This document shows, piece after piece, positions 14,987 to 36,390 of a stretch of DNA of 64,000 nt (within the stretch, counting starts at the first letter, position 1; each line of letters opens with the position of its first letter). Made by a program: the position numbers and the translations under genes. Origin of the DNA: Aquamicrobium lusatiense (lineage in GTDB: Bacteria; Pseudomonadota; Alphaproteobacteria; Rhizobiales; Rhizobiaceae); contig NZ_JACHEU010000001.1 in NCBI RefSeq assembly GCF_014201615.1, positions 329,631 through 393,630 of the forward strand, read 5' to 3'. The notes under the pieces are model-generated. The model saw only the letters and a list, made by a program, of their open reading frames with translations, ran no database searches and was not told the origin of the DNA.

Positions 14987-15436
14987 TCAGTCCGGGATAA
15001 CCGCCGTCGCCTGTATCTCGACCAGCGCCTCGTCCTCAATCAGGCCCGACACCTCAACCACGGCCATGGCCGGGAAATTGCGTCCCATCGTGGCCTTCCA
15101 CGCAGCGCCGATTTCCTTCAGCGAAGCCGAATATACCTTCTTGTCGGTGACGTACCACGTCATGGTGGTGATGTGCTCGGGACCCGCGCCGCCTTCGCGC
15201 AGGATGGCGAGCACGTTTTCCAGCGTCTGCCTGATCTGGCCCGGCAGATCGTGCGCCTCGAACTTCATCTGGCCGTTCCAGCCGATCTGGCCGCCGACAT
15301 AGATGGTGCGTCCGCGCGCATCGATGCCGTTGGAATAGCCGACAGGCTTGTCCCAGCCTTCCGGGTGCAGAATGCGATGCGGGGTACGGGGCAAGGTTGC
15401 GGGCGGGGCCTGCTCTGCGGGCTTGGTCTCGCTCAT
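14987..15436 (-). CDS. RidA/YjgF-family protein of the aminobenzoyl-CoA operon
   Basis: 149-residue RidA-family protein. RidA enzymes hydrolyse reactive enamine/imine intermediates. Family features include [42 protein letters not shown] and [20 protein letters not shown]; the last segment carries the E-x-x-A pattern of the pocket, although the strict Arg of archetypal RidA is not obvious. It is the last gene of the operon running from 21107, overlapping the acyl-CoA dehydrogenase stop by ATGA. After ring hydroxylation/reduction of aminobenzoyl-CoA the product is an enamine, so loss of ammonia by this protein is a plausible role (inference). Confidence 0.88.
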
Positions 15437-16662
15437 GACGACTCCTGTCTCGATAGTTTCACCAGCTCACGGCCGATGATCAGCTTCTGCACCTCGGTGG
15501 CGCCTTCGTAGATTCTGAGCGCCCGGATCTCGCGATAGAGCCGCTCCGTGATGTTGCCGACCTGCACGCCGCGCCCGCCGAACATCTGCACGGCCTGGTC
15601 GATTACCCATTGTGCGTTCTCGGTGGCGGTCAGCTTGGCCATGGCCGCTTCCTTCGTCGCAGGCAGCTTCTGCACGTCGCGCCGCCATGCGGTGCGCGCC
15701 ACCAGAAGTGCCGCCGCGTCGATGGCCGTCGCCATTTCACCCAGCGTGCTCTGCGCCGTCGGAAGATCGGCCAGCGTGGCCCCGAACATCGTTCGCGAAC
15801 CGGCATGGGTGACGGCTTCCGCAAGCGCGCGGCGTGCGAAACCGAGCGCGGCAGCGGCTACCGAAGGCCGGAAGATGTCGAGCGTGCGCATGGCGATCTT
15901 GAAGCCCTCACCCGGCGCTCCCAGCAGGCGCCCTGCCGGAATGCGGCAGTTCTCGAAACGGATCAGCGCCAGCGGATGCGGGGCGATGGTCTCGATGCGC
16001 TCGGCGATTATGAAGCCGGGCGTATCGGCATCGACGACAAAAGCCGAAATGCCGCGCGTGCCGGGTGCCTCGCCGGTGCGGGCAAAGACCGTGTAGACAT
16101 CGGCGATACCGCCATTGGAGATGAAAATCTTCTCGCCATCGAGCACATAATGGTCACCGTCGCGGCGGGCAGAGCAGCTCATTGCCGCCACGTCCGACCC
16201 GGCGTCGGGCTCTGTCAGCGCGAAAGCCGAAATCAGTTCGCCCTTCGCGATCTTCGGCAGGATCTTCTGTTTCAGGTCCTCGCTATCCGAAAGGCTGATG
16301 GCCCCCGTGCCAAGCCCCTGCATGGCGAAGGCGAAATCGGCCAGCCCATCCTCATGGCCCAGCGTCTCACGCAGAATGCACAGCGAGCGGCTGTCGATCT
16401 CCGGCGAAATGCCGCCATAAGCCTCAGGCACGCAATGGCGCAGGAAACCGGCAGCGCCGAGTTTCTTCACCAGCGCCCTGCAGGCCGCGTCAGCATCGCC
16501 ATGGTCGATCTCGCCAAGCCCGCCGGCAGCGATGAACGCGTCTGCCTCCGCCGCCAGCGCCCGATGCCCGTCGCCATAGAAGGGCCAGTCGAGATGGTCG
16601 CGGGGTGGCGGCTTTGCCGGGGTTGGGGCCGGGGTCGAGGCCGGGGTCGAGGAATGCGCCAT
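15433..16662 (-). CDS. acyl-CoA dehydrogenase of the aminobenzoyl-CoA operon
   Basis: 409-residue FAD-dependent acyl-CoA dehydrogenase. Motifs are [20 protein letters not shown] (FAD/substrate signature), [20 protein letters not shown] and, near the C-terminus, [20 protein letters not shown] followed by [18 protein letters not shown]; the glutamate of YEGATE is the usual catalytic base position. It would oxidise an alicyclic CoA ester after ring reduction. The N-terminus carries a low-complexity Thr/Pro/Ala stretch ([16 protein letters not shown]) encoded by a GGGGCC-like tandem repeat; an alternative start just after it is possible. The gene is 3 bases after the enoyl-CoA hydratase gene. Confidence 0.9.
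16619..16646 (+). repeat. G-quadruplex-capable G-run cluster at the 5' end of the acyl-CoA dehydrogenase gene
   Basis: Four runs of GGGG on the plus strand separated by 2, 2 and 8 bases (runs at 16619, 16625, 16631 and 16643). They are part of a short imperfect tandem repeat based on GCCGGGGTCGAG that encodes the Thr/Pro/Ala stretch of the protein. The G-rich strand is the template strand for the operon. Quadruplex formation is a prediction from the run pattern. Confidence 0.55.
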
Positions 16663-16665
16663 GGC

Positions 16666-17508
16666 TCAGTTCCCCTTGAAATCGGGCTTGGCCTTGGCCG
16701 CGAACGCCTCGAAGGCGCGACGAAAATCGCCGGTCGCCATGCAGATCGCCTGCGCCTGCGCTTCCGATTCCAGCATTTCCTCGATGCCCATCGCCCATTC
16801 CTGATCGAGCATCTTCTTGGTCATGGAATGGGCGAACCACGGACCGTCCGCCAGCCTGCGGGCGAAGGCCTGCGCCTGCCCCAGAAGCGCATCGCGTTCG
16901 GCAATCTCATTGTAAAAGCCCCAGTTATGGCCTTCCGCCGCCGTCATCACCCGGCCGGTGAACAGAAGCTCCGCTGCCCGGCCCTGCCCGATGATGCGCG
17001 GAAGAATGCCGCAGGCGCCCATATCGGCCCCGGCCAGCCCGACGCGCGTGAACAGGAAGGCGGTTTTCGCCTCAGGCGTGGCAAGGCGATAGTCGGATGC
17101 CATGGCGAGGATCGCGCCCGCCCCGGCACAGATGCCGTCCACCGCGGCGATCACCGGCTGCGGGCAGGCGCGGATCTGGCGCACCAGATCGCCGGTCATG
17201 CGGGTGAAGGCCAGAAGGTCCGGCATCTTCATGACCGTCAGCGGCTCGATGATCTCGAACACGTCGCCGCCGGAGCAGAAATTGTTGCCCTCGCCGGTCA
17301 GCACCACGCAGCGCACATCGCTGGCGCGCGTCAGCGCCCGGAACAGATCGCCCAGCTCCTCGTAGCTCTCGAAGGTGAGCGGGTTCTTCTTGTCCGGCCG
17401 GTTGAGCGTGATCGTTGCCACGCCCCCGTCCTCATCCGTCTCAAAGCGAAAATGCTTCGGCTGGAAATCCCGGAACGGCCGGAGCTTGGCCTGCATGGCA
17501 TTGGTCAT
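16666..17508 (-). CDS. enoyl-CoA hydratase/isomerase family protein
   Basis: 280-residue crotonase-fold enzyme. The oxyanion-hole segments are [20 protein letters not shown] and [20 protein letters not shown]; Asp/Glu residues follow in [20 protein letters not shown], the usual catalytic stretch. The start [20 protein letters not shown] is longer than in E. coli homologues. It lies between the cupin gene (30 bases upstream) and the acyl-CoA dehydrogenase gene in the operon that starts with 2-aminobenzoyl-CoA monooxygenase. In that pathway a hydratase or ring-opening hydrolase of this fold would act on the alicyclic CoA intermediate; the precise step is inferred. Confidence 0.9.
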
Positions 17509-17538
17509 GACAAACTCTCTTCCTCTTGTCCGGCCCGC

Positions 17539-17997
17539 TCAGTCGTTGGCGGAAGGCGGCAGAAAATCCACATCGTGTTCAGCCGAGACCTTCACCACCT
17601 CGTCGGTGTCGGTCATGTTGTGCAGCTTCTCAAAAAGCTCTTTCAGCCGCCCGGCCGGCGACACCCAGAACAGGGCGCGGGCAGGCTTGTCGGTTTTGTT
17701 GAAATAGCCATGCGGGACACCGCGCGGCATGCGCACGAGATCGCCGGCGGAAGCGGTGAACCACTTGCCATCCAGCTTCACCTGCAACTCGCCCTCCTGA
17801 ACGAGGATGAACTCATCCTGCGTCGGGTGAACATGCACCGGAACGAACTGACCGGCCGCACTGTTGGTCTCGAACGCAAAGCTCGAAGCGCCGACGGATT
17901 TGGGGAAATAACGCTGGCCGAGAATGTTCCACTCCACATTCCCGTAGCCTTTGCCGTTCGCGGTGATCCCGCCTTCGACTTCATCTTTTTCTGCCAT
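17539..17997 (-). CDS. cupin-domain protein of the aminobenzoyl-CoA operon
   Basis: 152-residue single-domain cupin, function unknown. The second ATG (17997) has the better spacing to GGGAGG. The metal-binding motif is FVPVHVHPTQDEFILVQEGE (HxH, then E), followed by the second cupin motif PRGVPHGYFN. The residues match a mononuclear metal site, so an enzymatic or ligand-binding role is possible. It is embedded between the SDR gene (12 bases away after its stop) and the enoyl-CoA hydratase gene, so it probably takes part in processing an aminobenzoyl-CoA intermediate. Confidence 0.85.
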   Translation of the reverse strand: MAEKDEVEGGITANGKGYGNVEWNILGQRYFPKSVGASSFAFETNSAAGQFVPVHVHPTQDEFILVQEGELQVKLDGKWFTASAGDLVRMPRGVPHGYFNKTDKPARALFWVSPAGRLKELFEKLHNMTDTDEVVKVSAEHDVDFLPPSAND

Positions 17998-18012
17998 CAT
18001 GTCCTCCCGGTT

Positions 18013-18786
18013 TCAGTTCATCACTTCACCGCCGGCCACCGCGATCGCCTGCCCGGTGACGGCGCCGGCCCCTTCGCCGGCCAGCCACAGCACGGCATCG
18101 GCGACCTCCTGCGGCGTGACCAGCCTGCCCTGCGGGTTTGCCCGCGCCAGCGCCGCCCGCGCATCGTCGGCGCTGCGCCCGGTCTTGCCGGTGATGTTGT
18201 CCACTGCCGCATCGAGCAGCGGCGTATCGGTGAAGCCGGGGCAGACGGCATTGACGGTGATGCCGGTGCGCGCCAATTCCAGCGCCAGCGACCGCGTCAG
18301 CCCGACCACGCCATGCTTGGCCGCGCAATAGGCGGAAACGTAAGCGTAGCCGGTCATGCCGGCGGTGCTGGCGATGTTGATGATGCGCGCCGAGCCGGCC
18401 TTGCGCAGCGAGGGCAGCAGCGCGCGCGTGACCAGATAGGTGCCGGTGAGATTGACCGCGACGACGTGGTTCCACAGCCCAGGATCGGTTTTTTCAAAGG
18501 GCGCGGACGGCGCTTCGCCGGCACAATTGACCAGCACCGAGACCTCGCCCAACGCCGAAATTGCCTGCGCAGCGCCAGCGGCAACTGCCTGCTCGTCGAT
18601 CACGTCGAAACCGTCGACCACCAGCGCCTTGCCGCCCAAAGCCACGATTTCGGCGGCAACCGCCTGAAGCGGTCCGGCCCGCCGCCCCGCCAATGAGACG
18701 GCAAAACCCTTGCCCGCCAGCGCCAGCGCGATGGCCCGGCCGATGCCGGTGCCCGCCCCGGTGACGAAGGCGTGTTGCGCGCTCAT
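18013..18786 (-). CDS. short-chain dehydrogenase (3-hydroxyacyl-CoA dehydrogenase-like)
   Basis: 257-residue SDR. The NAD(P) motif [20 protein letters not shown] is at the N-terminus, NCAGEAP (in place of NNAG) in the middle, and the active site is present as [22 protein letters not shown] (Ser, Tyr-x-x-x-Lys). The first cofactor-discriminating strand ends AGRRAG, which favours NADP(H). The start at 18786 overlaps the monooxygenase stop (ATGA). In the aminobenzoyl-CoA pathway an enzyme of this class would act on a ring hydroxy or keto group in the beta-oxidation-like phase. Confidence 0.9.
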
Positions 18787-21107
18787 TTCCGGCCTGCCGC
18801 TTCTGCGGCCGCGCGGGCCAGATTGTTTTCGTACTGCGAACGCGCCGACAGATATTGCTTCGGCCATTCCACGCCGGAAAAACCGATCTTCGCCGCCTCA
18901 TGCAGAACGAAGGACGGATCGGCCAGATGCGGGCGGGCGACGGCGCACAGGTCGGCACGGCCGGCGGCAATGACGGAATTGGCATGATCGGCCTCGGAGA
19001 TCGCGCCGACCGCGATGGTCGCAACGCCGACCTCGTTGCGGATCTTGTCCGACATCGGCGTCTGCCACAGCCGCCCGTAAACGGGGCTGTCGTCGGTCAC
19101 CACCTGCCCGGTCGAGCAGTCGATGAGATCGGCGCCGGCCTCCCTGAACATCCGCGCAAAGATGGCGGCATCCTCCGGCGTGTTGCCGCCCTCGTGCCAG
19201 TCGGTGGTCGAGAGGCGCACCGAGATCGGGCGATCCTGCGGCCATGCCGCGCGCACGGCGCGAAACACCTCCAGCGGGAAGCGGGCGCGGTTCTCATGAC
19301 TGCCGCCATACGCGTCATCACGCCGGTTGGTCAGCGGCGACAGGAAGGACGACAGCAGATAGCCATGCGCGGCGTGGATTTCAAGAATGTCGAAACCGGC
19401 CGCTGCGGCACGTTTCGTGGCCGCGACGAAATCGGCAACGACGCGGTCCATATCGTCCCGTGTCATGGCGCGCGGCACCTGCGACTGCGGCAGATAGGGA
19501 ATGGCGGAAGCCGAAAGAAGCGGCCAGTTCTCTTCATCAAGCGGCTGGTCCATGCCTTCCCAGCCGCGCTTTGTGGAACCCTTGCGGCCGGCATGGCCAA
19601 GCTGGATGCCGATTTTCGCCGGCGTCTGGCCATGCACGAAATCGACGATGCGTTTCAACGCCGCAGCCTGCTCGTCGTTCCAAAGGCCAAGACAGCCCGG
19701 CGTGATGCGGGCATCCGGCGAAGTGCAGGTCATCTCGGGGAAGATGAGGGCTGCCCCACCCATGGCGCGTGCGCCGAGATGCACCATGTGAAAATCGTCG
19801 GCCAGCCCGTCCGTGGCGGAATACATGGCCATGGGCGACACGATGATGCGGTTGCGCAGGGTCAGGCCGCGCACCGTGTAGGGCGTGAACATGGGCGGCG
19901 GCACGCTGCCGTCGGCTGCCGGCTCCACGCCGGCCCGTTTCGCGAACCAGCGCTCGTAGCCTTCCAGCCATTCAGGGTCGCGCAGGCGCAGGTTTTCGTG
20001 GCTGATGCGCTGCGAGCGGGTCAGCATGGAATACATGAACTGTTCGGGTTCAAGCCGGTCGGCATAGCGATGCCCAACGACCTCGAACCATTCCATGGCG
20101 TTGCGGGCCGCGTTCTGGATGCGCGCGACATCGATGCGGCGCACCTCCTCATAAGCGTCCAGCACGGCCGGGATATTTTTCGCATCGTGGCCGAAGGCGT
20201 TGAACTGGCGGGTCAGCTCGATGGCGTCGTCGATGGCGAGCTTGGTGCCCGAGCCGATGGCGAAATGGGCGGTGTGAGCGCTGTCGCCCATCAGCACGAC
20301 ATGGCTTTTGCCGTTGAAATGGCTCCACTTCTCGCAGATCAGCCGGCCGAAATTCAGCCATGCGGAGCCGCGCAGATGGCGCGCATTGCTCATCAGGCGC
20401 GAGCCGCCCAGCGTATCCGCGAACAGCTTTTCACAGAAGGCGATCGACTGGTCCTGATCCATCTCGCCGATGCCGTGGGCGTTGAACACGTCCTCGGTGG
20501 TCTCGACGATGAAGGTCGAGGTGCTGTCGTCGAACTTGTAGATATGCGCCTGAAACCAGCCATGCTCGGTGCGCTGGAAATCGAAGGTGAAGGCATCGAA
20601 GGCCTTGTCGGTGCCGAGCCAGATATAGCGGTTGGGCCGCATCAGCATGTCGGGCCGGAACACGTTTTCATAGCGGGTGCGGATGCGCGAATTGACGCCG
20701 TCCGAAGCGATGATCAGGTCGGCATCGGCGAATTCCTCGTCGCTCTGCACATCCTGCTCAAACACCAGCTCGACGCCGAGTTCGAGGCAGCGCTCCTGCA
20801 ATATGTTGAGCATCTTCTTGCGGCCGATGCCGACGAAGCCGTGGCCGGTGGTGCGGATCTTGCGACCCTTGAACACCAGCTCGATGTCGTCCCAGTGGTT
20901 GAAGGCGTCCTCGATGGTGGCGGCCGTCTGCGGGTCCCACTCGCGCATCGACTGCATGGTGGCATCGGAAAACACCACGCCCCATCCGAACGTGTCGAAG
21001 GCCCGGTTGCGCTCGACCACGGTCACCCGATGCGCGGGATTCTGCTTTTTCATCAGCAGGGCGAAATAGAGACCGGCCGGCCCGCCTCCGATGCAGACAA
21101 TGCGCAT
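18783..21107 (-). CDS. 2-aminobenzoyl-CoA monooxygenase/reductase (bifunctional salicylyl-CoA hydroxylase/oxidoreductase family)
   Basis: 774-residue two-domain flavoprotein. The N-terminal half is a class-A monooxygenase: [20 protein letters not shown] (FAD Rossmann motif, residues 7-12), a DG motif in [15 protein letters not shown] and [14 protein letters not shown] at about 274-287. The C-terminal half from about residue 405 is an Old Yellow Enzyme domain ([39 protein letters not shown]). This fusion is known from Azoarcus evansii, where it hydroxylates and then reduces 2-aminobenzoyl-CoA to an alicyclic enamine using O2 and NADH. Salicylyl-CoA 5-hydroxylase is the alternative; kynureninase and a CoA ligase nearby favour anthranilate. 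It is the first gene of its operon, and an operator-like motif lies 77 bases upstream. Confidence 0.9.
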
Positions 21108-21183
21108 GATCGTTCCTCCCGTCATCGGCATGGCGGAGCCTGAACACCACCTTTGCCGCTCTCAAGAAAGAGCATTCCGAAAA

Positions 21184-21206: not shown

Positions 21207-21280
21207 GGAGTGACGCAAAAATCGCAACTCTCCCGCCGGGCGAACTGGCGGGAACCATGCACCAGCCGGCGAAAAGGGGG

Positions 21281-21802
21281 TTAGGTGACCGACAGTGCCT
21301 GACGGATCGAACCCTTGAGCCGGCCCAGTGCATCCATCAGCAAGGCTTCGTCATTGCGCGACAGATGGCCGAACAATTCGCCGATCCATTCGCCATGGCG
21401 GTCCGCCATGGTGCGGAATGCGGCACGTCCCTCATCGGTCAGGGCGATGATCTGAACGCGGCGATCCTTCGGCGAGACAGTGCGGCTGACATAGCCCATC
21501 TCCACCAGCCGCTCGACCAGCGCGGTAAGATTGCCGGCCGAAACCATCATGCGCCGCGAAACCTCGCCCAGCACCATGCCGTTTTCGGCGCGTTCGAGCT
21601 GCGCCATCAGGTCGAAGCGCGGCAGGGTGAAGTCGAACTCCTCGCGCAACCGCCGCCGGATCTCGGTCTCAGCCAGCGTCGCGCAGGTCAGGAGCCTGAG
21701 CCACAGGCGAATTTCCGCGCCATGGTCGCCCGGCGCCTCCAGCACCTTGGTCTCCCCGTCCAGCCATTCGGCCTGACGCTCGTCGTCCCTGATCTCGTTC
21801 AT
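21281..21802 (-). CDS. MarR-family transcriptional regulator
   Basis: 173-residue winged-helix regulator. The DNA-binding region is FDLMAQLERAENGMVLGEVS, then MMVSAGNLTALVERLVEMGY (recognition helix), and the wing is VSPKDRRVQIIALTDEG with the conserved D-x-R pattern. MarR proteins near CoA-dependent aromatic pathways usually release DNA when they bind the aryl-CoA intermediate. This gene lies directly upstream of the monooxygenase operon on the same strand, with the palindrome at 21184 between them. The second copy of that palindrome near kynB/ligase suggests a two-site regulon. The effector, perhaps aminobenzoyl-CoA, is inferred. Confidence 0.88.
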   Translation of the reverse strand: MNEIRDDERQAEWLDGETKVLEAPGDHGAEIRLWLRLLTCATLAETEIRRRLREEFDFTLPRFDLMAQLERAENGMVLGEVSRRMMVSAGNLTALVERLVEMGYVSRTVSPKDRRVQIIALTDEGRAAFRTMADRHGEWIGELFGHLSRNDEALLMDALGRLKGSIRQALSVT

Positions 21803-21888: not shown

Positions 21889-22857
21889 TCAGGGCCGGGG
21901 AATGCCGCCTGCAAGCACCGTCGCATAGGCGTCCGCATCGATGTTGCCGCCGGAGATCACGCACACCACATTGCCTTGCGCGCGCGGACTGGAAAGGGCG
22001 GCGGCAAGCGAAGCAGCACCTGCACCCTCCGCCACCACCCTGGCCCGCGAAAACAGAAGCCGCATGGCATCCGTCACCTGCTCGAGGCTGACGGTCTCGG
22101 CGCCGTCGATCAGCTCGCGCGCCACGGGCCACAGCTGCGGCACCAGCGAAGGTCCGCCTATGCTCTTGATGAAGGACGGCTTCGTTTCGATATCCACGAT
22201 GCGGCCGGCGGCGAGAGCCGCGGTGACCGGCGCGGCATTCTCGTCCTCGACGGCCAGAATTTTTGTGTCCGGCTTCAGCGCCCGCATAGCGCTGGCGACA
22301 CCCGTTGTCATCGAGCCCCCGCCATAGGGAGTGAAGACCACATCGACCTCAGGCAGCGCCTCGACGATTTCGAGCCCGATGGTGCCGTTGCCGTCCAGCA
22401 CGGCCTGATCGGTGACCGGATTGATCAGCAACTCGTCAAGCTGCGGACGGTCGGCATCGGTGATGTAGCGCCACCAGTCGTCCATGCCTATGAAACGCAC
22501 CTCGCCGCCGAGACCCCGCACGCCGTCGATCTTGGTCTGCGGCGCGCCTTCATACATGTAGGCGGCCATCTTCACGCCGAGCGCGTGGGCCGCCCACGCC
22601 ATGCCATAGGCCATGTTGCCGGAACTGACCGTGGCGACGCCGCTGGACAGCTCCGCCTGCTTTCGCGACAGCAGCGCATTGAGCGCCGGCCGCAGCTTGA
22701 AAGCGCCGATGGGCGAGAGCGTTTCCAGCTTCAGGAAAATGCGCCGGTCCGGAAGCCCGAGATCGAGCGGCACCAGCGGAGTCGGCTGCATATAAGCGAC
22801 GAGGCGTGCTTGCGCCGCCTGCATCGCTGCAAGCACCGGTCTTTGCGGGGCGTTCAT
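21889..22857 (-). CDS. PLP-dependent serine/threonine dehydratase-like enzyme
   Basis: 322-residue fold-type II PLP enzyme. The PLP lysine lies in PIGAFKLRPALNAL; in canonical threonine dehydratases this reads GSFKxRGA, so the context is altered. The phosphate-binding loop is FTPYGGGSMTTGVAS and an asparagine lies in SSGNMAYGMAWAA. The C-terminal regulatory domain of biosynthetic IlvA is absent, so this is a catabolic type (threonine/serine dehydratase, racemase or hydroxy-amino-acid ammonia-lyase). Its start overlaps the GntR gene stop (ATGA), so the two form an operon. A function in the tryptophan region is not established. Confidence 0.85.
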   Translation of the reverse strand: MNAPQRPVLAAMQAAQARLVAYMQPTPLVPLDLGLPDRRIFLKLETLSPIGAFKLRPALNALLSRKQAELSSGVATVSSGNMAYGMAWAAHALGVKMAAYMYEGAPQTKIDGVRGLGGEVRFIGMDDWWRYITDADRPQLDELLINPVTDQAVLDGNGTIGLEIVEALPEVDVVFTPYGGGSMTTGVASAMRALKPDTKILAVEDENAAPVTAALAAGRIVDIETKPSFIKSIGGPSLVPQLWPVARELIDGAETVSLEQVTDAMRLLFSRARVVAEGAGAASLAAALSSPRAQGNVVCVISGGNIDADAYATVLAGGIPRP

Positions 22858-23666
22858 TCCACAGCGGCCTTTCTGCTCCCGGCCTTGTCCGACCTTTTGC
22901 GGCGCCCCGCTTCTTCCCCGGCCTGAATATAGGCATGGAGCGTGTAGCCGATATGCTCTTCCATCAGCCGGCGCGCCCGCTCCATGTCGCGGTCGAGCGC
23001 CGCCTCCATCAGCGCCGTGTGATGCTCGATCCCCATTGCTTCGCGCAACGCCGTCACCGCTGCCTCATAGCCTTCCTGCCGCCCTTCAGCGGCGCGCAGG
23101 GTAGGTGCCAGACCCAGAAAGCGATGGTGCCGGCGCAACTGATCGGAGATCGTGGCGTGGAAGCGCAGCAGCCAGCTTGATCGCGCAGCGCTCAGCAGGG
23201 CATCATGGAAAGCACTGTGCTTTTCATCCCATTCGTCAACCGCAGCTTCTGACGGATCGTCGGGCGCGATCTTGCAGCGCGACAGACGGAAATGGCTGGT
23301 GACGACCGCCGCCTCCCACGCCTCATCACCGTTGGCGATCGATTCCAGCAACAGCGGTAACTCCACCACCATGCGCGCTCGCGCCAGATCCTCAAGCTCG
23401 CCCTTCGACACCGGCGCCACCGCGAAACCGCGATTGGAGATGGCTGTGACCAGCTTCTCCGCCTCCAGCCGCGACAACGCCTCGCGCAGCGGCGTCCAGC
23501 CGACGCCATAGGCATCGCGCAACGCGCCCAGTTTCAGCGCCGCCCCCGGTTTCAGCCGGGTGGCCAGAATATCGCGCCGCAGCAGGCTGTAGGCTGCTTC
23601 CGTCTTGCTCTGTCGGGTTTCTTCCTGCATCGTGCCATCCGCTTGCATCAGGCCGTCTCCGGCCAT
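22854..23666 (-). CDS. GntR-family regulator (FadR/FCD type)
   Basis: 270-residue regulator. The winged helix (about residues 20-90) includes RRDILATRLKPGAALKLGAL and GVGWTPLREALSRLEAEKLV. The C-terminal all-helical FCD domain contains EKHSAFHDALLSAARSSWLL and MERARRLMEEHIGYTLHAYI, with the Asp/His residues that coordinate a metal in this class. The ATG at 23666 follows GGGAGGA; an upstream GTG at 23693 is weaker. It diverges from the TrpX-like transporter operon and probably controls it through the AT-rich sites at 23695-23764. Confidence 0.88.
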   Translation of the reverse strand: MAGDGLMQADGTMQEETRQSKTEAAYSLLRRDILATRLKPGAALKLGALRDAYGVGWTPLREALSRLEAEKLVTAISNRGFAVAPVSKGELEDLARARMVVELPLLLESIANGDEAWEAAVVTSHFRLSRCKIAPDDPSEAAVDEWDEKHSAFHDALLSAARSSWLLRFHATISDQLRRHHRFLGLAPTLRAAEGRQEGYEAAVTALREAMGIEHHTALMEAALDRDMERARRLMEEHIGYTLHAYIQAGEEAGRRKRSDKAGSRKAAVE

Positions 23667-23694
23667 GATCGCGTCTCCTCCCCGGCTCCGCACG

Positions 23695-23764: not shown

Positions 23765-23767
23765 CGT

Positions 23768-23795: not shown

Positions 23796-23849
23796 CACGC
23801 CCCAAGGCGAAAATGAAAACGCCGATGGTCGATGTCTCGGGAGGTTACA

Positions 23850-28174: not shown

Positions 28175-28857
<683 letters not shown>

Positions 28858-28861
<4 letters not shown>

Positions 28862-29607
28862 GCCCCATCTCCGAGATAGGCGCGCCGGACCTCCGCATCG
28901 GAGCGGATTTCGGCCACGGTGCCGGTGGCGATGATGCGGCCATAGACCAGCACCGAGATGCGGTCGGCAAGCGCGAAGACGGCATCCATGTCGTGCTCGA
29001 CCAGCAGGATCGGCGCTTCGTGACGCAGGCCATCGAGAAATCCGGTCAGCCGTTTCGAGCCTTCCGGCCCAAGCCCCGCCATCGGCTCGTCGAACAGGAA
29101 GGCTTTCGGCCCCAGCGCCAGTGCAATGGCGATCTCGAGCTGGCGACGCTCGCCATGCGACAGTTCCGCCGCTGGCACCTTCGCCCGCGCCTCAAGCCCG
29201 ACACGCTCCAGTATCGCCATGGCGGGCCCGGTCAGGCTGCCATCGCTCGCCACCGGGCGCAGGAAGCGGAAGCTGGACCCCTGCCTTGCCTGCACGGCCA
29301 GCATGACGTTGCGCACAGCGGAAAATTCCGACGCCAGCGAGGAGATCTGGAAACTGCGCCCCAGCCCCTTGCGCACCCGCGCCGCCATGTCGAGCCCGGC
29401 CATATCCTCGCCGAGAAAGCGGATGGTGCCGCTGTCGGGCCGGATCGACCCGCAGATCTGGTGGATCAGCGTGCTCTTGCCGGCCCCGTTGGGGCCGATC
29501 AGCGCATGGATTTCGCCCGCGCGCAGGTCGAGGCTCACGCCGTCGGTGGCCTTGAGCGCGCCGAAGTTCTTCCGCAGATCGGAAAGCTGGAGGACGGGCT
29601 CAGCCAT
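28858..29607 (-). CDS. branched-chain-type ABC transporter ATP-binding protein (LivG-like)
   Basis: 249-residue ATPase. The start at 29607 (MAEPVLQLSDLRKNFGALKA) is preferred to an upstream frame extension into livM. Walker A is GPNGAGKST, the signature is LSHGERRQLEIAIAL (the SHGE variant common in LivG), Walker B is PKAFLFDEPMAGLGP and the switch histidine is in LLVEHDMDAVFAL. It pairs with the LivF-like ATPase downstream to drive the LivHM-like permeases. Confidence 0.92.
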
Positions 29608-30580
29608 GGCGCGCCTTTCCGGCCAGAAGTCCGAGAAGTCCCCCGCGCGCGAACAGCACCACGCCAAGCAGGATCAGCCCGAGGAAGAACTGCCAGCGCT
29701 CGGTGATGCCCCCCAGCGCATATTCAAACAGGACATAGACCATCGCCCCGGCCAGCGGACCGAACAGCCGGCCCTTGCCGCCAAGGATGATGAGCACGAT
29801 CAGCTCGCCCGACATGTGCCAGGACAGCATGGAGGGGCTGACGAAGCGGTTGAGATCGGCAAACAGCGCGCCGGCCAGCCCCGTCACCATGGCCGAAACG
29901 GCGAAGGCGACCAGCCGGATGGCGAACGGTGCGATGCCGACGGCCGCAAGCCGCGTCGGGTTCTGCCGCGAGGCTTCCAGCGCCGTGCCGAAGCGCGAGC
30001 CCTTGATGAGCTGGAACAGCACGAGCCCCGCCGCCAGAACGCCGAGGCAAAGCAGGAAATAGGGCAAGGGTTGCGCCGTATTCAGGCCCGGAAAGCCGTT
30101 GCGCACATAGATCGACAGCCCGTCCTCGCCGCCATAGCTCGGCCAGGAGACGGCGAAATAATAGATCATCTGGGCGAAGGCCAACGTGATCATGATGAAA
30201 TAGACGCCCGAGGTGCGCAGGCTGATCGCCCCGATCGGCAGCGCCACAAGTCCGCACAGCGCCATGGCGCTCAGCCAGATCACCGGCATGGAGGTGGTCG
30301 CCGTAAGGCCGAACGGCAGCGGCTCGCCATTGAAGGCGTGGGTGGCGAAGATGCCGGCGACATAGCCGCCAAGGCCGAAGAAGGCGGCGTGTCCGAACGA
30401 CACCAGCCCGCCAAGGCCGAGCGCGATGTTCAGCCCCACCGCCGCCAGCGCCAGAATGGCGATGCGGGTGGCAAGCGTCACGTAGAACGGCTCGCCCGCC
30501 ATCGTCGCCGCCACGGGAATGGCGACCAGCAGCACGAGCAGCAGCGCGCTGACCAGCGTTCCGCGCGACAGAGCCATCAT
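29600..30580 (-). CDS. branched-chain-type ABC transporter permease (LivM-like)
   Basis: 326-residue inner-membrane permease. Features are ALNIALGLGGLVSFGHAAFF preceded by VG, the LivM hallmark (GLxSFGHAAFFGLGGY), and FGTALEASRQNPTRLAAVGI, the cytoplasmic coupling region. The start at 30580 overlaps the LivH-like stop by ATGA; a second in-frame ATG lies three bases further on. Its stop overlaps the LivG-like start. Confidence 0.92.
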   Translation of the reverse strand: MMALSRGTLVSALLLVLLVAIPVAATMAGEPFYVTLATRIAILALAAVGLNIALGLGGLVSFGHAAFFGLGGYVAGIFATHAFNGEPLPFGLTATTSMPVIWLSAMALCGLVALPIGAISLRTSGVYFIMITLAFAQMIYYFAVSWPSYGGEDGLSIYVRNGFPGLNTAQPLPYFLLCLGVLAAGLVLFQLIKGSRFGTALEASRQNPTRLAAVGIAPFAIRLVAFAVSAMVTGLAGALFADLNRFVSPSMLSWHMSGELIVLIILGGKGRLFGPLAGAMVYVLFEYALGGITERWQFFLGLILLGVVLFARGGLLGLLAGKARHG

Positions 30581-31497
30581 GCCTGCCCCGCGAACAGGCC
30601 GCGCGGCCGCAATGCCAGGATCAGCGCCATGAGAATGTAGATGAGCATCGAGGCAAGGGCTGCCCCCACCAGATTGGCCTGCGAAGCGGGCATGGTCAGC
30701 GCCAGCAGCTTGGGCAGCAGGAAACGGCCCATCGTATCGACCACCCCGACCAGAATGGCCCCGACCAGCGCGCCCTTGATCGAGCCGATGCCGCCAATGA
30801 CGATGACCACGAAGGCAAGGATCAGCGCCGGCTCGCCCATACCCACCTGAACAGATTGCAGCGCGCCGACCAGCGCGCCGGCAAGACCGGCAAGGGCAGC
30901 ACCTAGCGCAAACACCACCGTGTAGAGCGTGCGGATGTCGACGCCGAGCGCGGCGATCATCTCGCGGTCGCTTTCGCCGGCGCGGATGCGCATACCGAGC
31001 CTTGTGCGCGAAATCAGCAGGTAGAGACCCACCGCCACGACGATGCCGACGCCGATGATCGCCAGCCGGTAAAGCTGGTATTGCCCGCCACCCGGCAGCG
31101 GCACCGCGCCCTGCAACAGCGGCGGAATGTCGAGATAGAGCGGGAAGGAGCCGAACATCCAGCGCGTGCCTTCCGACAGGATGAGGATCAGCGCGAAGGT
31201 CGCCAGCACCTGATCGAGATGATCGCGCTCATAAAGCCGGCGGATAATGGCCATTTCCATCAGTGCCCCGGCGGCGGCGGCGGCGGCAAGGCTCGCCGCC
31301 AGCCCCAGCCAGAACGAGCCGGTCGCCGCGGCGACGGCCGCACAGGCAAAAGCCCCGATCATGTAGAGCGAGCCATGGGCGAGGTTGATCAGCCCCATGA
31401 CGCCGAAGATCAGCGTCAGGCCGGCCGCAATCAGGAACAGCATGACGCCGAGCTGCAATCCGTTCAGCAATTGCTCGATGATGAGGGCGATGGACAA
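30577..31497 (-). CDS. branched-chain-type ABC transporter permease (LivH-like)
   Basis: 306-residue inner-membrane permease. The N-terminus EQLLNGLQLGVMLFLIAAGL and FGVMGLINLAHGSLYMIGAF are diagnostic of LivH. The coupling loop is GMRIRAGESDREMIAALGVD. The start codon is TTG at 31497, the only candidate in frame before the conserved region, with GGAAG about 10 bases upstream. A 165-base gap with imperfect inverted repeats separates it from the binding-protein gene. Confidence 0.9.
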   Translation of the reverse strand: MSIALIIEQLLNGLQLGVMLFLIAAGLTLIFGVMGLINLAHGSLYMIGAFACAAVAAATGSFWLGLAASLAAAAAAGALMEMAIIRRLYERDHLDQVLATFALILILSEGTRWMFGSFPLYLDIPPLLQGAVPLPGGGQYQLYRLAIIGVGIVVAVGLYLLISRTRLGMRIRAGESDREMIAALGVDIRTLYTVVFALGAALAGLAGALVGALQSVQVGMGEPALILAFVVIVIGGIGSIKGALVGAILVGVVDTMGRFLLPKLLALTMPASQANLVGAALASMLIYILMALILALRPRGLFAGQA

Positions 31498-31662
31498 AAG
31501 CGAAAGCTTCCGGCTGGATTTTCAGATGGATCCACCTGTTGCGGGGTTCACATCCCCTGCAGGTTTTCCGACTCACAGGAAGACGGGAAACCGGCAGCGG
31601 GATAAACCCGTTCAGGCAGCGGAAACAAGAAGAGGCTTCATTCTCCCGCAGGAGAGAAAAGG

Positions 31663-32799
31663 CTACATCTTGCACTGCTCGACATAGGCGTCGCCATGCT
31701 TCTCGAAGGCGGTGGCGATGATCTTGTTGGTCAGCACATCGCCTTCCTTCACCACCTCGCGCACATAGATGTTCTGGATCGGGTGCTGGTTGGTATTGAA
31801 GGTGAACTCGCCGCGCACCGACTTGAAATCCGCTGCCTTAAGCGCCGCGCGGAAGGCGTCCTTGTCCTTGACGTCGGCCTTGGCGAGCGCCGACAGGATG
31901 AGGTTCGCCGTATCCCAGCTTTGCGCCGCATAGATGGACGGCAGGCGACCATATTCGGCCTGGAAGGCTTCGACGAACTCCTTGTTGGCCTCGTTGTCGA
32001 GGTCCTTCGACCAGCTCGCCGAGTTCTTCACGCCGAGCGCGGCATCGCCCACGGCCGGCAGAACGTCCTGAGAGAAGGAGAAGCCCGGACCAAGCACCGG
32101 CAGGCCGACGCCCGACTGCGCATATTGCTTCATGAAGGCGATGCCCATGCCGCCGGGCAGGAAGAAGAACACCGAATCCGCGCCCGCAGCGCGGATCTGC
32201 GCAATCTCGGCCGCATAGTCGGTCTGGCCGACCTGCGTGTAAAGTTCGCCGGCCAGCTCGCCCTTGTAGTAGCGCTTGAAGCCGGTCAGCGAATCCTTGC
32301 CGGCCGGATAGTTGGGCGCGAGGATGAAGGTCTTCTTGTAATCCTGATTGGCGTACTGCCCCATCGCCTCGTGGAAATTGTCGTTCTGGTAGGCGACGTT
32401 GAAATAATTCTTGTTGCAGTTGGCGCCAGCGAGCGCCGAGGGGCCGGCGTTGGGCGAGAGATAGATCACGTCCTGCGCCACAGTGTTCGGGACCACCGCC
32501 ATGGCAAGGTTCGACCAGATGATGCCGGTCATCAGATCGACCTTGTCGCTCTGGATCATCTTTTCGGCGATCTGCACGGCGAGTTCCGGCTTCTGCGCAT
32601 CGTCCTCGATGACCAGCTCGACATCCGTGTTGCCGGACTTCCTGAATGCCAGAACGAGGGCATCGCGCGTGTCGACGCCAAGTCCGGCACCGCCGCCCGA
32701 AAGCGTGGTGATGACGCCGATCTTGACCGGATCAGCCAGTGCTGCGCCGGCCGCCGTCATTGAAAGCGCGAGCAGGCTCGCCGTCAGAATTCTTTTCAT
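31663..32799 (-). CDS. periplasmic binding protein of the branched-chain-type transporter (LivK-like)
   Basis: 378-residue type-I periplasmic binding protein. The signal peptide MKRILTASLLALSMTAAGAA ends near LADPVKIGVITTLSGGGAGL, the standard start of this family. YLSPNAGPSALAGANCNKNY and FILAPNYPAGKDSLTGFKRY match members annotated for aromatic or aromatic-acid substrates; true LIV-binding proteins differ in this pocket. It lies between kynA and the LivH-like gene in one operon, so an aromatic ligand from the kynurenine pathway is the best inference. Confidence 0.88.
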   Translation of the reverse strand: MKRILTASLLALSMTAAGAALADPVKIGVITTLSGGGAGLGVDTRDALVLAFRKSGNTDVELVIEDDAQKPELAVQIAEKMIQSDKVDLMTGIIWSNLAMAVVPNTVAQDVIYLSPNAGPSALAGANCNKNYFNVAYQNDNFHEAMGQYANQDYKKTFILAPNYPAGKDSLTGFKRYYKGELAGELYTQVGQTDYAAEIAQIRAAGADSVFFFLPGGMGIAFMKQYAQSGVGLPVLGPGFSFSQDVLPAVGDAALGVKNSASWSKDLDNEANKEFVEAFQAEYGRLPSIYAAQSWDTANLILSALAKADVKDKDAFRAALKAADFKSVRGEFTFNTNQHPIQNIYVREVVKEGDVLTNKIIATAFEKHGDAYVEQCKM

Positions 32800-32838
32800 C
32801 TTGTTCTCCTCCCAGAGTTCCCCGTCCGCAGACGTTTT

Positions 32839-33678
32839 CTACAGCCGTGTCCGAACTTTCCAGAGTTCCGGAAACAGTTCAACCTCAAGCATCCGTTTCA
32901 GGTAGGAAACGCCGCCGGTGCCGCCCGTGCCGCGCTTCAGGCCGATCACCCGCTCCACCGTGGTGACGTGGTTGAAGCGCCAGCGGCGGAAATAATCCTC
33001 GAAATCGACCAGCTTCTCGGCCAGCTCGTAAAGCTCCCAGTAGCGGTTCGGCTCGTGATAGACCGCCCGCCACGCCTCCAGAACGGCTTCGCTTTCCGTG
33101 CGCGTTTCGCGCCAGTCCGTGCGCCGGCCGTCCGCGCCGATGTCGAAGCCGCTGCGCCCAAGCAGCAGGATCGCCTCGTCATAGAGCGAGGGCTGGCTAA
33201 GAATTTCCTCAAGCTTCGCCACCACATCGGGGCGATGGTTGTGCGGCCCCAGCATGGCGAGGTTGCGGTTGCCAGCGAGGAACTCGATCGCCCGATACTG
33301 CCACGACTGGAAGCCGGAAGACTGGCCGAGCGAATCGCGGAACTCGGTGTATTCGCTGGGCGTCATGGTGCGCAGCACGTCCCAGGCGCTGTTGAGCTGC
33401 TCGAAGATGCGCGCCACCCGCGTCAGCATCTTGAAGCAGGGCCGCACCTCGCCGCGCCGCACGCAGGCAATGGCCGAACGCAGTTCGTGCAGCGCCAGCT
33501 TCATCCACAATTCGGAGGTCTGGTGCTGGATGATGAACAGCATCTCGTCATGCGCGGCCGAAAGCGGCTCCTGCGCGTCGAGCACCTTGTCCAGCCGCAG
33601 ATAGTCGCCATAGGACATGCGCCCCCGAAAGGACATCTGCGCGCCCTCGGCGGACGGATCGTAGGGCTTGTCGCTCAT
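32839..33678 (-). CDS. kynA: tryptophan 2,3-dioxygenase
   Basis: 279-residue cytoplasmic heme enzyme that opens the indole ring of tryptophan with O2 to N-formylkynurenine. The start at 33678 overlaps the CoA-ligase stop by ATGA, and the length is normal for bacterial enzymes. Conserved elements are [20 protein letters not shown] (distal His52), [20 protein letters not shown] (substrate-binding Arg), YWELYE, and [20 protein letters not shown] with His237 as the proximal heme ligand. It is the second gene of the ligase-kynA-transporter operon; kynB is divergent from that operon. Confidence 0.97.
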
Positions 33679-35297
33679 TGGCGCTCCACTCTGAGCCTGA
33701 AGCGCTGAATCTTCCCCGTCTGCGTCTTGGGCAGGGCATCGAGAAAGCGGATCGAGCGCGGATATTTGTAGGGAGCGATAGTCGCCTTGACGTGATCCTG
33801 CAAGCGCCTGACCATCTCCGCATCGCCCGCCATGCCGCGCGCCAGCACCACATAGGCTTCCACGATCTGGCCTCGCTCGGTGTCGGGCGCGCCGATCACC
33901 GCGCATTCGGCCACATCGTCATGGGCAAGCAGCGCGGCTTCCACCTCCGGCCCGGCAATGTTGTAGCCGGCCGAGACGATCATGTCGTCGGACCGGGCGG
34001 CGAAGTGGAAAAAGCCGTCCTCGTCCTGCACGAAGGTGTCTCCGGTGAGGTTCCAGCCATCGCGGACATAGGCGCGCTGGCGCTCGTCCGCCATGTAGCG
34101 GCAGCCGGTCGGGCCGCGCACGGCGAGCCGGCCCACCGTGCCGCGCGGCACCTCGTTCATGTCATCGTCGACGATGCGCGCCTCATATCCGCCCACGGGC
34201 CTGCCCGTTGAAGCGGCGCGCATGTCGCCGAAGCGGTTGGAAATGAAGATATGCAGCATTTCGGTCGCGCCGATGCCGTCGAGAATGGGCTTGCCGGTCT
34301 TTTGCACCCATTCCTCGAAGACGGGCCCCGGCAGCGTTTCGCCAGCGGACACCGCGACACGCAGCGACGACAGGTCCGCCCCCTCATCCATCGCCTTCAT
34401 CATCGCCCGGTAGGCGGTGGGCGCGGTGAAGGAAATGGTCGCCTTGTAGGTTTCGATGATCTCGATCATGTTGGGCGGCGAGGCGTTTTCAAGCAGGGTG
34501 GCCGTCGCCCCGAAACGCAGCGGAAACACCGCCAGCCCCCCAAGGCCGAAGGTGAAGGCCAATGGCGGCGAGCCGACGAACACATCGTCCGGCGTCACGT
34601 CCAGAACCTCCTTCGCATAGCCGTCGGCGATGATCAGCAGGTCGCGGTGGAAATGCATGGTCGCCTTCGGCACGCCGGTGGTGCCCGAGGTGAAGCCGAG
34701 CAGGGCGACATCGTCGCGGCCGGTCTTCACCGCCTCGAAGCGCACGGATTTGCCGAGCGCGATGCGGTCCAGCTCCGCGTCATGGTTGGCGGTGCCGTCG
34801 AAGCCGATCACCTTCTTCAGGAAACGGCTGTCCTTGGCGCAGGCCACCATCTCGTCCATCAGCCGCGTGTCGCACAGCGCCAGCGAGATTTCCGCCTTGT
34901 CGACGATCTGCGCCAGTTCCCCTGCCCGCAGCATCGGCATAGTGTTGACCACAACAGCGCCCGCCTTGGTCGCAGCCAGCCAGCAGGCCACCATGGCCGG
35001 ATTGTTGGCGGAGCGGATCAGCACCCGGTTGCCGGGCTGCAGGCCGTAGTCCTCGACCAGCGCATGGGCGAGGCGGTTGGTCCAGTCCGACAGTTCCTTG
35101 TAGGTGCGCCGCCGACCGTTGCCGATCAGCGCCGTATGATCGCCAAAACCCTGCTCGACCAGCCGGTCGGTGAGTTCGTGGCCCGCATTGATGAATTCGG
35201 GATAGTCGAACCCGTCGAGCAGGAAATCCGGCCACTCTTCCTGCGGGGGAAGGTTGTCACGGGTGAAGGTGTCGATATGTGCCGTAGGCCCAAGCAT
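33675..35297 (-). CDS. 2-aminobenzoate-CoA ligase (benzoate-CoA ligase family)
   Basis: 540-residue AMP-forming ligase that would convert anthranilate, ATP and CoA to 2-aminobenzoyl-CoA. The adenylate loop [10 protein letters not shown] spans residues 203-212, followed by TMHFHRD as in aryl-CoA ligases. Other family motifs are [40 protein letters not shown] and the C-terminal lysine in KTQTGK (Lys529). The adjacent kynureninase pathway and the aminobenzoyl-CoA monooxygenase make anthranilate the likely substrate; benzoate or salicylate are alternatives. It is the first gene of the operon ligase-kynA-LivKHMGF-like. Confidence 0.9.
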
Positions 35298-35452
35298 GCG
35301 CGTGATGTCCTCCCTGCGACGACTGCCGGGGCCCGCTCAGCATGGAGCGCCGGATCGTTGCCGGCCGGTTCCTCCCCCGGCCCGGCATCCGCGCTTCCCG
35401 GAAGGGGCACGCCGGCATCGTCGACAGAAGAAAAAATGACACCGGCCGAAAA

Positions 35453-35475
35453 TTATTTCAAGCCTAAAGTTTCTT
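35453..35475. promoter_or_regulatory. second copy of the putative MarR operator
   Basis: The string from 35457 to 35475 (TTCAAGCCTAAAGTTTCTT) matches 21188-21206 at 18 of 19 positions. It lies in the 262-base divergent region, 85 bases before kynB and 156 bases before the ligase gene, so it could control either or both. The symmetric left arm is less well kept than in the first copy. Confidence 0.65.
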
Positions 35476-35559
35476 CGCTACGATGATTGCGACGGGAATT
35501 GACTTCGCCGCCCTGCGCAGGGCTTTCTGCACAGATACCGAAAGACCGGAGAACCGACC

Positions 35560-36390
35560 ATGCTGAGCCGCCATATCGAGGACTGGAGCGACGCCTACAC
35601 CAATGGCGCGCATATACCCGGCGGCGACCGCTGGCCCGCGGCATGGGTGGAGCCGGCACAGAGCTTCCGCGAGCAACTGGCGGCGCAGGGACGCGCGAAA
35701 ATCGACCTCGCCTATGGCGATGCCGCCCGCAACCGGCTCGACCTGTTTCTGCCGGAAGCCAGCCCACGCGGACTTGTGGTCTTCGTGCATGGCGGCTACT
35801 GGATGGGGCTCGACAAGAGCTACTGGTCGCATCTGGCGGCCGGGCCGCTCGCCCATGGCTATGCGGTGGCGATGCCCTCCTACACGCTGTGCCCGGACAT
35901 CCGCATTTCCGGCATCACCCGCGAGGTCGCATCCGCCATCGCCTTCGCCGCCGGCGAGATCGACGGCCCGCTGATGCTCACCGGCCATTCCGCCGGCGGC
36001 CATCTCGTGTCGCGCATGGCAAGCGCCAGTGCGCCAATGCCGGAAGCCGTACAGGCCCGCATCCGCCATGTCGTGTCGATCTCCGGCGTGCACGACCTGC
36101 GACCGCTGATGCGCACCGGCATGAACGCAACGCTGCACATCTACGAGGCCGAGGCGCTGGCCGAGAGCCCCGCCCTGCTGCAGCCGCGCGAAGGCATCCG
36201 CCTCACCTGCTGGGTCGGCGCCGCGGAGCGAGCGGAATTCCTGCGCCAGAACGCGCTTCTGGCCAACATCTGGACCGGACTTGGCGCGCGCACCGCCGCC
36301 GTGGCGGAACCCGACCGGCATCACTTCAACGTTATCGACGGTCTTGCCGACCCCGATCATCCCCTGACCAGAACCCTGCTCGGCGACTAA
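35560..36390 (+). CDS. kynB: arylformamidase (kynurenine formamidase, alpha/beta-hydrolase type)
   Basis: 276-residue hydrolase converting N-formylkynurenine to kynurenine and formate. The oxyanion motif HGGYWMG is at residues 77-83, the nucleophile elbow TGHSAGGHL has Ser144, and the catalytic histidine is in DRHHFNVIDGL near residue 251. This eukaryote-like alpha/beta-hydrolase form differs from the cyclase-like KynB of Pseudomonas, so the symbol is functional. ATG 35560 is preceded by CGGAGA. It is transcribed away from the ligase-kynA operon; a shared operator lies between them. Confidence 0.88.
   Translation: MLSRHIEDWSDAYTNGAHIPGGDRWPAAWVEPAQSFREQLAAQGRAKIDLAYGDAARNRLDLFLPEASPRGLVVFVHGGYWMGLDKSYWSHLAAGPLAHGYAVAMPSYTLCPDIRISGITREVASAIAFAAGEIDGPLMLTGHSAGGHLVSRMASASAPMPEAVQARIRHVVSISGVHDLRPLMRTGMNATLHIYEAEALAESPALLQPREGIRLTCWVGAAERAEFLRQNALLANIWTGLGARTAAVAEPDRHHFNVIDGLADPDHPLTRTLLGD

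Follow-up and report, generated by a model that had tools for sequence, protein, structure and literature searches.

How does a bacterium that cleaves tryptophan along the kynurenine route dispose of the resulting anthranilate, and which proteins release its nitrogen and open its ring? This question is raised by a stretch of 64,000 nt of the Aquamicrobium lusatiense genome (contig NZ_JACHEU010000001.1, positions 329,631 to 393,630), hereafter the window, in whose numbering all coordinates are given. From 14987 to 36390 the window carries an island of 21 proteins in which kynurenine genes (kyn) stand among genes of the 2-aminobenzoyl-CoA pathway (abm). The original prediction had described it as a complete tryptophan-degrading island with two dedicated transporters, and all genes it named are intact open reading frames (ORFs) in the ORF list of the window. 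They form five groups: marR followed by the genes of a monooxygenase/reductase fusion, a short-chain dehydrogenase/reductase (SDR), a cupin, a crotonase, an acyl-CoA dehydrogenase (ACAD), and a Rid-family protein on the minus strand; gntR and a pyridoxal phosphate (PLP) enzyme on the minus strand; trpX-trpZ-trpY-kynU on the plus strand; an aryl-CoA ligase, kynA, and livK-H-M-G-F on the minus strand; and an alpha/beta-hydrolase by itself on the plus strand. Family scans covered 20 of the 21 proteins, that is, all but LivM, and a Pfam scan covered 10 of them.

The proposed pathway starts with KynA, the alpha/beta-hydrolase, and KynU, which by family assignment would yield anthranilate and alanine. 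The ligase would convert anthranilate to 2-aminobenzoyl-CoA, and the fusion—by homology to the enzyme known from Azoarcus evansii—would convert the latter to 2-amino-5-oxocyclohex-1-ene-1-carbonyl-CoA, an enamine. The Rid protein, which lacks the catalytic Arg of its family, is predicted to hydrolyze this ring enamine to ammonia and 2,5-dioxocyclohexane-1-carbonyl-CoA. The SDR would reduce the 5-oxo group, and the crotonase would act like a beta-ketoacyl hydrolase and, as BadI does, cleave the ring next to the newly formed ketone; these lower steps may also follow another order. The ACAD would then start the beta-oxidation of the C7 dicarboxylyl-CoA. Genomic evidence gives good support to a kynurenine route that feeds the 2-aminobenzoyl-CoA route. 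The joint reading—uptake of tryptophan or kynurenine, degradation via anthranilate and CoA thioesters, deamination by Rid, reduction by the SDR, and ring opening by the crotonase—is, on balance, the probable one.

Linkage of the kynurenine genes to the CoA genes

The ligase gene (33675..35297, minus strand) and kynA (32839..33678, minus strand) overlap by 4 bp, as do fusion and SDR, ACAD and Rid, and gntR and the PLP gene. The ligase–kynA overlap is also kept in Aminobacter and would place the oxidation of tryptophan and the activation of anthranilate on a single transcript. Plasmid pUSP1 of Aminobacter sp. MSH1 (L087) features the same content and gene order from the alpha/beta-hydrolase to Rid; it differs by the lack of the cupin, a thioesterase before Rid, and a FadJ-like gene directly after Rid, a place at which the window has none. 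In Ruegeria, Thalassospira, Ensifer, and Shinella, the arrangement recurs in looser form. In Ruegeria pomeroyi DSS-3, the genes for tryptophan 2,3-dioxygenase (TDO) and the hydrolase are divergent from the abm cluster. Operon-like versions are found in Thalassospira marina, with the order abmA-sdr-marR-ech-acad-ligase-kynU-kynA-thioesterase-Rid, and in genome G154, with the order sdr-marR-ech-acad-abmG-kynA-kynU-Rid and no fusion nearby. In addition, kynA and kynU stand beside the cluster in G029 and G160, and kynA in G178.

A survey of whether kyn genes and the fusion co-occur in relatives, proposed along with the original prediction, points to such co-occurrence. It comprises 190 alphaproteobacterial genomes from 168 genera, 30 of which have the fusion: 27 over the cut-off and three (G154, G064, and G007) below it or split by contig ends. 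The cut-offs, which were set after the scores had been seen, are at least 112 bits for Rid, 238 for kynureninase, 288 for TDO, and 127 for 3-hydroxyanthranilate dioxygenase (3-HAO). Kynureninase occurs in 19 of the 30 fusion genomes and in 13 of the 160 others (p 1e-10), a count that includes one genome, G131, below the curated cut-off; TDO occurs in 16 and 9, respectively. On a tree of 56 fusion proteins, the kyn-linkage label, set by hand for 11 of the 56 rows from the genes in the fetched stretch, undergoes six changes, and the starred branches alone force six (bootstrap range 6–6), which indicates that the linkage was gained or lost several times. The claim that the kynurenine route feeds the 2-aminobenzoyl-CoA route is, hence, upheld by the ligase–kynA overlap, the Aminobacter gene order, the two operon-like versions, the co-occurrence, and the tree. 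The association is not wholly unreported: Cupriavidus metallidurans is annotated with kyn and abm genes together in the portion of PMC8879955 drawn on here, and strain CH34 of this species is said, in a part of PMC2842291, to be unable to use tryptophan.

In 12 of the 19 fusion genomes with kynureninase, a strong 3-HAO match is missing, and the CoA route is, therefore, a likely outlet there. The idea that the CoA route and the 3-hydroxyanthranilate route exclude each other was tested and rejected: 3-HAO is found in 10 of the 30 fusion genomes and in 6 of the 160 others, so that several genomes may use both routes. The A. lusatiense genome has no match to 3-HAO, a family matched in 21 of the 190 relatives. 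For anthranilate 1,2-dioxygenase, the best match in the genome reaches 115 bits against a curated cut-off of 671.9—a weak test, as no control genome passed either.

Two of the three KynABU assignments of the original prediction hold as made: KynA (TIGR03036, 419.7 bits, cut-off 390.7) and KynU (26848..28095, plus strand; TIGR01814, 348.4 bits, cut-off 246.4) both exceed the curated cut-offs. The ORF named kynB (35560..36390, plus strand) is an alpha/beta-hydrolase (NF058665 HaHSL_fam, 383 against a cut-off of 320), and the metal-dependent KynB family PF04199 has no match across the whole genome, with matches in 8 of 14 control genomes. The hydrolase is related to kynurenine formamidase (PDB 4e11, E 4e-16) and to a putative esterase (PDB 2pbl). 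Homologues adjoin TDO in Ruegeria (51% identity), lie near KynA in the Aminobacter island (76%), and are divergent from the fusion in Thalassospira. Judged from sequence, the protein is a probable N-formylkynurenine formamidase—KynB in function though not in family—and this role stays an inferred one, as the NCBIfam name of its family is 'hormone-sensitive lipase'. Compared with the standard KynABU route, KynA and KynU are alike, whereas the formamidase is an alpha/beta-hydrolase instead of a PF04199 cyclase type and anthranilate would go to CoA thioesters instead of catechol.

Uptake was assessed by gene neighborhoods in 80 loci, the best 80 of at least 591 confirmed fusion relatives at one genome per species among 84,980 species. 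In these loci, the fusion is at least 74% identical, partner genes were counted at 40% identity or more, and the flanks extend to at most 10 kb, which misses more distant genes. Two ABC importers are present in the island. The first, TrpXYZ-like, consists of a TrpX-like substrate-binding protein (23832..24836, plus strand; NF041285, 180.6 bits, below the cut-off of 390), an ATP-binding protein (24925..25701, start approximate, plus strand), and a permease (25706..26629, plus strand), the latter two assigned by ORF list and family scan. The second is of the branched-chain type: LivF, LivG, LivM, and LivH (28175..31497, minus strand; family scan, LivM by ORF list only) and a LivK-type substrate-binding protein (31663..32799, minus strand; family scan). 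Of the 16 loci with kynU, 15 have trpX and 12 the PLP gene; neither gene occurs in the 64 loci without kynU. On this distribution, the importer of the TrpXYZ type and the PLP enzyme would belong to the tryptophan half. The gene livH, with 11 of 16 and 10 of 64, is commoner beside kynU but not bound to it. Of the two transporters predicted to be dedicated, the TrpXYZ-like one thus has the better claim to that standing; the Liv importer could act on anthranilate, on tryptophan products, or on both. A tie of the Liv importer to the CoA half only was dropped, given that livH is commoner in kynU loci.

The same counts bear on an alternative in which the cluster serves external anthranilate or other aromatic acids and the kyn genes are nearby by chance or shared regulation, tryptophan not being the main substrate. 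It could account for the 64 of 80 abm loci without kynU within 10 kb and for the Liv importer beside abm genes in loci devoid of kynU. The repeated kyn linkage on the tree, the ligase–kynA overlap, the co-occurrence in the class sample, and the restriction of the TrpX-like importer to kynU loci speak against this explanation, which is judged quite unlikely.

A Rid protein without the catalytic arginine

The most constant partner of the fusion is the Rid protein (14987..15436, minus strand). Among the 80 loci, Rid is present in 77, SDR in 73, ACAD in 67, crotonase in 61, MarR in 44, ligase in 26, and livH in 21; rarer partners are kynU and gntR (16 each), trpX (15), the PLP enzyme (12), the cupin (9), the alpha/beta-hydrolase (3), and kynA (2). 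The three loci without Rid in the flanks carry it elsewhere in the genome. In the 190 genomes, 28 have both fusion and Rid, 2 the fusion only, 6 Rid only, and 154 neither (p 2e-25, Fisher). The two fusion-only genomes are G025 (86% complete) and G064 (68% complete); counting the 27 over-cut-off fusion genomes alone, Rid is present in 26. The profile of the Rid group splits the class sample distinctly, with 39 places at 112 bits or more and all others at 80 or less. Rid lies within about 12 kb of the fusion in 17 of the 28 double-positive genomes, and in 4 (G007, G035, G154, and G159) it lies with the ligase, SDR, or other lower-pathway genes, away from the fusion. Two stricter forms of the association were rejected: confinement of the Rid group to fusion genomes, by the six Rid-only genomes (two of which, G067 and G095, have Ile at the site described below), and strict adjacency, by the 17 of 28. 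Outside the Alphaproteobacteria, Met-type Rid shares a record with the fusion in Deinococcus, Gemmatirosa, Arthrobacter, Limnohabitans, Comamonas, and two Caballeronia records—that is, in Deinococcota, Gemmatimonadota, Actinomycetota, and Betaproteobacteria.

The window protein belongs to PF01042 (70.9 bits) and aligns with RidA, yet it scores 46.7 in TIGR00004 against a cut-off of 106. As in RidA and the Rid1–3 deaminases, Tyr and Glu are kept (Y34 and E140, the equivalents of RidA Tyr17 and Glu120), whereas Met124 takes the position of Arg105. The label RidA of the original prediction, hence, fits the family, whereas the Arg that defines the deaminating RidA proteins is replaced. In alignment A1, all 14 rows have Met at the Arg site and all keep the Glu; the Tyr is kept in 13. 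The 80 loci supply 77 Rid proteins, in which the site residue is Met in 76 and Ile in the remaining one, L056; Tyr and Glu are kept. The reading of the Met site covers all loci other than L214. Met and Trp residues are conserved in the group. By its sequence, the protein is one of the Arg-less Rid proteins; its site residue is Met, compared with Trp in Rid4 and Rid7 and variable residues in Rid5 and Rid6. According to the passages of Niehaus et al. (PMC4433059) used here, the RidA Arg binds substrate carboxylates, its replacement by Ala nearly abolishes imine hydrolysis, and Rid4–7 lack it—Trp standing in Rid4 and Rid7 and variable residues in Rid5 and Rid6—with activities described as completely unknown. 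The same passages suggest that Tyr and Glu position the substrate and the hydrolytic water. The loss of Arg fits a substrate without a carboxylate beside the imine carbon, where the Arg would be useless.

General damage control, for instance against 2-aminoacrylate from the neighboring PLP dehydratase, is a different role for Rid. RidA proteins do damage control and cluster with dehydratases, as excerpts of PMC4433059 state, and a dehydratase-like gene sits in the island. However, the dehydratase occurs in 12 of the 80 loci compared with 77 for Rid, and action on imino acids requires the Arg that this Rid does not have, which renders the explanation unlikely.

Several loci show other contexts. 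In L138–L140, L146–L150, and L155, the fusion has no SDR, crotonase, or ACAD nearby; the genomes have Met-type Rid, except G025. In L186, L187, L191, L192, and L196, an Arg-less Rid (Met; Ile in L196) lies beside a more distant ACAD and not near the fusion; Rid proteins of this group may thus serve a second pathway. L200 belongs to G093, a genome that has no full fusion; here, about 3 kb separate a Met-type Rid from a gentisate-dioxygenase-like gene. L054, a record under the name Bacillus subtilis SK6B4, has an abm cluster of the rhizobial type with a fusion 75% identical and is probably mislabeled or contaminated.

The proposed lower pathway: substrate, nitrogen release, and ring opening

The fusion (18783..21107, minus strand, 774 aa) joins a flavin monooxygenase to an old-yellow-enzyme (OYE) reductase, scores 1350 bits in NF006101 (cut-off 1078), and is 97% identical to the A. 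defluvii fusion. The search for its homologues scored 7998 of 7999 candidates, at the upper limit of the candidate number, so that the spread it shows is a lower bound. The names of its family conflict: salicylyl-CoA 5-hydroxylase at NCBI, anthraniloyl-CoA monooxygenase at JGI. Taken at its NCBI name, the fusion would be a salicylyl-CoA 5-hydroxylase, the island would degrade salicylate via gentisate, and the kyn genes would be passengers; fusion homologues do accompany gentisate-dioxygenase-like genes in Caballeronia pSBC1_4 and Cupriavidus taiwanensis. However, the 20 scanned island proteins include no gentisate dioxygenase, which is present in L089 and L096, and the window fusion falls into a clade of 15 Rid-cluster rows (100/100) with the two gentisate-type rows outside. 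The ligase lies 8 bits short of the cut-off of subfamily TIGR02262 (366.9 compared with 375.25), and its best match among solved structures is an anthranilate-CoA ligase (PDB 4wv3, 292 bits), with a modest margin over the next, a benzoate-CoA ligase (269 bits). In addition, Rid—the candidate for nitrogen release—is a fixed partner, and an OYE domain should be unnecessary for turning salicylate into gentisate. The salicylate/gentisate explanation of the island is, thus, disfavored and regarded as very improbable, and the cluster contexts favor the JGI name for most members examined. Fusion clusters of another kind, at L089:8448-13452 and L096:9001-13533, contain FAH genes alongside gentisate/5-aminosalicylate dioxygenase-like genes; no Rid or SDR was detected in them. 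No Rid match occurs on the plasmid in the two gentisate-type clusters of Caballeronia pSBC1_4 and Cupriavidus taiwanensis, which is consistent with a nitrogen-removal role of Rid.

Clustered with the fusion are the SDR (18013..18786, minus strand; PF00106), the ACAD (15433..16662, minus strand; PF00441/02770/02771), and a crotonase-superfamily protein (16666..17508, minus strand; NF006107). The label enoyl-CoA hydratase, given to the latter by the original prediction, does not agree with its active site: both hydratase glutamates are absent, their columns holding Ile (Met in Limnohabitans) and Arg in five of five abm crotonases, whereas both are kept in three of three FadJ/ECH controls from related loci. 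The absent pair makes the hydratase label doubtful. The abm crotonases keep an Asp (Asp162 in the window) that aligns with the PaaG Asp. BadI, a ring-opening hydrolase, and PaaG, an isomerase, are both of the crotonase family and lack the hydratase Glu pair. The window protein resembles them in these features but forms its own subfamily; it may open the ring, isomerization being the alternative. To call the island complete was, moreover, an overstatement, as neither a 3-hydroxyacyl-CoA dehydrogenase nor a thiolase is among the 20 scanned proteins.

A predicted intermediate can be compared with a metabolite. The acid of the predicted Rid product, 2,5-dioxocyclohexane-1-carbonyl-CoA, is C7H8O4. 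In Arthrobacter sp. Rue61a, a CoA ester of C7H8O4 was found only in anthranilate-grown cells among the conditions tested, and the authors named it possibly cyclohexanedione-carboxyl-CoA, as given in the portion of PMC3534580 consulted. This ester corresponds to the product predicted for the Rid step. Plasmid pAL1 of this strain (L097) carries ligase, fusion (49% identical), and Met-type Rid (38%) near each other, as well as a cupin unlike that of the window. Anthranilate-CoA ligase activity was measured for two encoded ligases of Rue61a, as the same portion of PMC3534580 reports. The plasmid differs from the window in that anthranilate derives from quinaldine and in having FAH and TesB-like genes instead; SDR, crotonase, and ACAD of the window type were not detected in the 50 kb read.

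In its fullest form, the proposal makes the Arg-less Rid a dedicated cyclic-enamine CoA deaminase that, with the hydratase-dead crotonase, would complete the lower pathway, the whole being a recurrent alphaproteobacterial tryptophan-degrading unit. This fuller proposal is a tentative one, falling somewhat short of probable. Several points weigh against the joint reading set out at the start. In 7 of the 28 double-positive genomes (G001, G044, G082, G105, G122, G128, and G157), the fetched stretch shows no fusion, SDR, crotonase, or ligase gene close to Rid, and Met- or Ile-type Rid proteins of this group occur without the fusion in 6 of 160 genomes. The Fisher tests for Rid and kyn count genomes as independent, ignoring kinship, and the 80 loci, as the most similar relatives (at least 74% identity), are not independent either. 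The gentisate comparison comprises two records and their plasmids only, and a 5-hydroxyanthranilate route may operate there. A plasmid-free Rue61a mutant still grows on anthranilate through chromosomal paralogues, and the C7H8O4 ester may be an artefact of acidic extraction, since the enamine is unstable below pH 5, and formic acid was used to quench the cells before analysis at pH 3.5 (all from the consulted portion of PMC3534580). Finally, the Arg-less Rid7 of Salmonella had no imine hydrolase activity, and the authors hold Rid4–7 to be most likely not imine hydrolases, as far as the passages of PMC4433059 go.

The latter two points lead to a Rid that is a pathway protein other than a deaminase: one that binds or channels an unstable CoA intermediate, isomerizes it, or acts after spontaneous deamination. 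Besides the inactive Rid7, this is in line with the enamine shedding its nitrogen without an enzyme, at least in acid (PMC3534580, in part), and with the conserved Met and Trp, which could bind a hydrophobic ring. On the other side, the pathway needs a nitrogen-removal step to which none of the other scanned island proteins can obviously be assigned, and both Tyr and Glu of the RidA site persist, though their substitution in Salmonella RidA had little effect according to excerpts of PMC4433059. Such a non-deaminating role is possible but rather less probable than enamine hydrolysis by Rid, which is retained here as the preferred assignment.

Further island genes, related systems, and meaning

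The remaining genes add regulators and two enzymes. The small cupin (17539..18000, minus strand; PF07883, 69 bits) has conserved His and Glu residues that suggest a metal site; a homologue with 73% identity lies in the Ruegeria cluster (L091:14538-14990). The MarR-family regulator (21281..21802, minus strand) matches PF12802/PF01047 and the GntR/FCD regulator (22854..23693, minus strand) PF00392 and PF07729. The PLP enzyme (21889..22857, minus strand; PF00291) is of fold type II and threonine dehydratase-like, and is perhaps linked to alanine or another kynureninase by-product. A gene of this type stands beside kynU-trp genes in Ensifer and adjoins GntR in Aminobacter. The island has the same G+C content as the remaining window, so composition gives no mark of foreign origin. 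It is bordered at 11587-14863 by polyamine-type ABC importer genes and an XRE-cupin regulator, and directly past it, at 36449-38873, by genes for a metallo-beta-lactamase-fold protein, an ArsR-type regulator, and YeeE-like membrane proteins, which look like a sulfide/persulfide set (both by ORF list only).

The island is not unique, its gene order being shared by Aminobacter; the Azoarcus-type pathway and the kynurenine route are both already known. For the Azoarcus evansii cluster, Schuhle et al. 2001 reportedly listed a YjgF-like protein and also, it is said, a MarR regulator and an ABC binding protein. The aerobic 2-aminobenzoate pathway of that organism has in common with the window a CoA ligase, a monooxygenase/OYE fusion, and beta-oxidation-type genes (cited in the parts of PMC4539516 and PMC3534580 consulted). 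The window adds kynA, kynU, a formamidase, and a TrpXYZ-like importer, with an extra cupin, PLP enzyme, and GntR. AmnE, the 2-aminomuconate deaminase, likewise removes an enamine nitrogen in aromatic catabolism, but its substrate is a dicarboxylate; its Arg117 is a conserved cleft residue, according to a section of PMC6742747. Rid proteins in aromatic catabolism are thus already known in kind, as in PMC6449761, whose consulted part does not link Rid to the 2-aminobenzoyl-CoA pathway; what would be new are the class of substrate and a site devoid of Arg. A literature search, mostly outside subscription journals, found no link between Rid and this pathway and no report of the Arg loss in this group.

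If true, the proposal gives a function to Arg-less Rid proteins, explains the loss of their Arg, and supplies the nitrogen-release step; together with the crotonase, it addresses the nitrogen-release and ring-opening gap of the 2-aminobenzoyl-CoA pathway. For one Arg-less Rid group, there is now a pathway context that dominates across several phyla, together with a predicted substrate that can be made. The NCBI label 'salicylyl-CoA 5-hydroxylase' obscures this pathway in public annotation. The findings suggest how tryptophan may be used, by a route free of catechol, in Alphaproteobacteria of soil and sea, the model strain Ruegeria pomeroyi DSS-3 among them.

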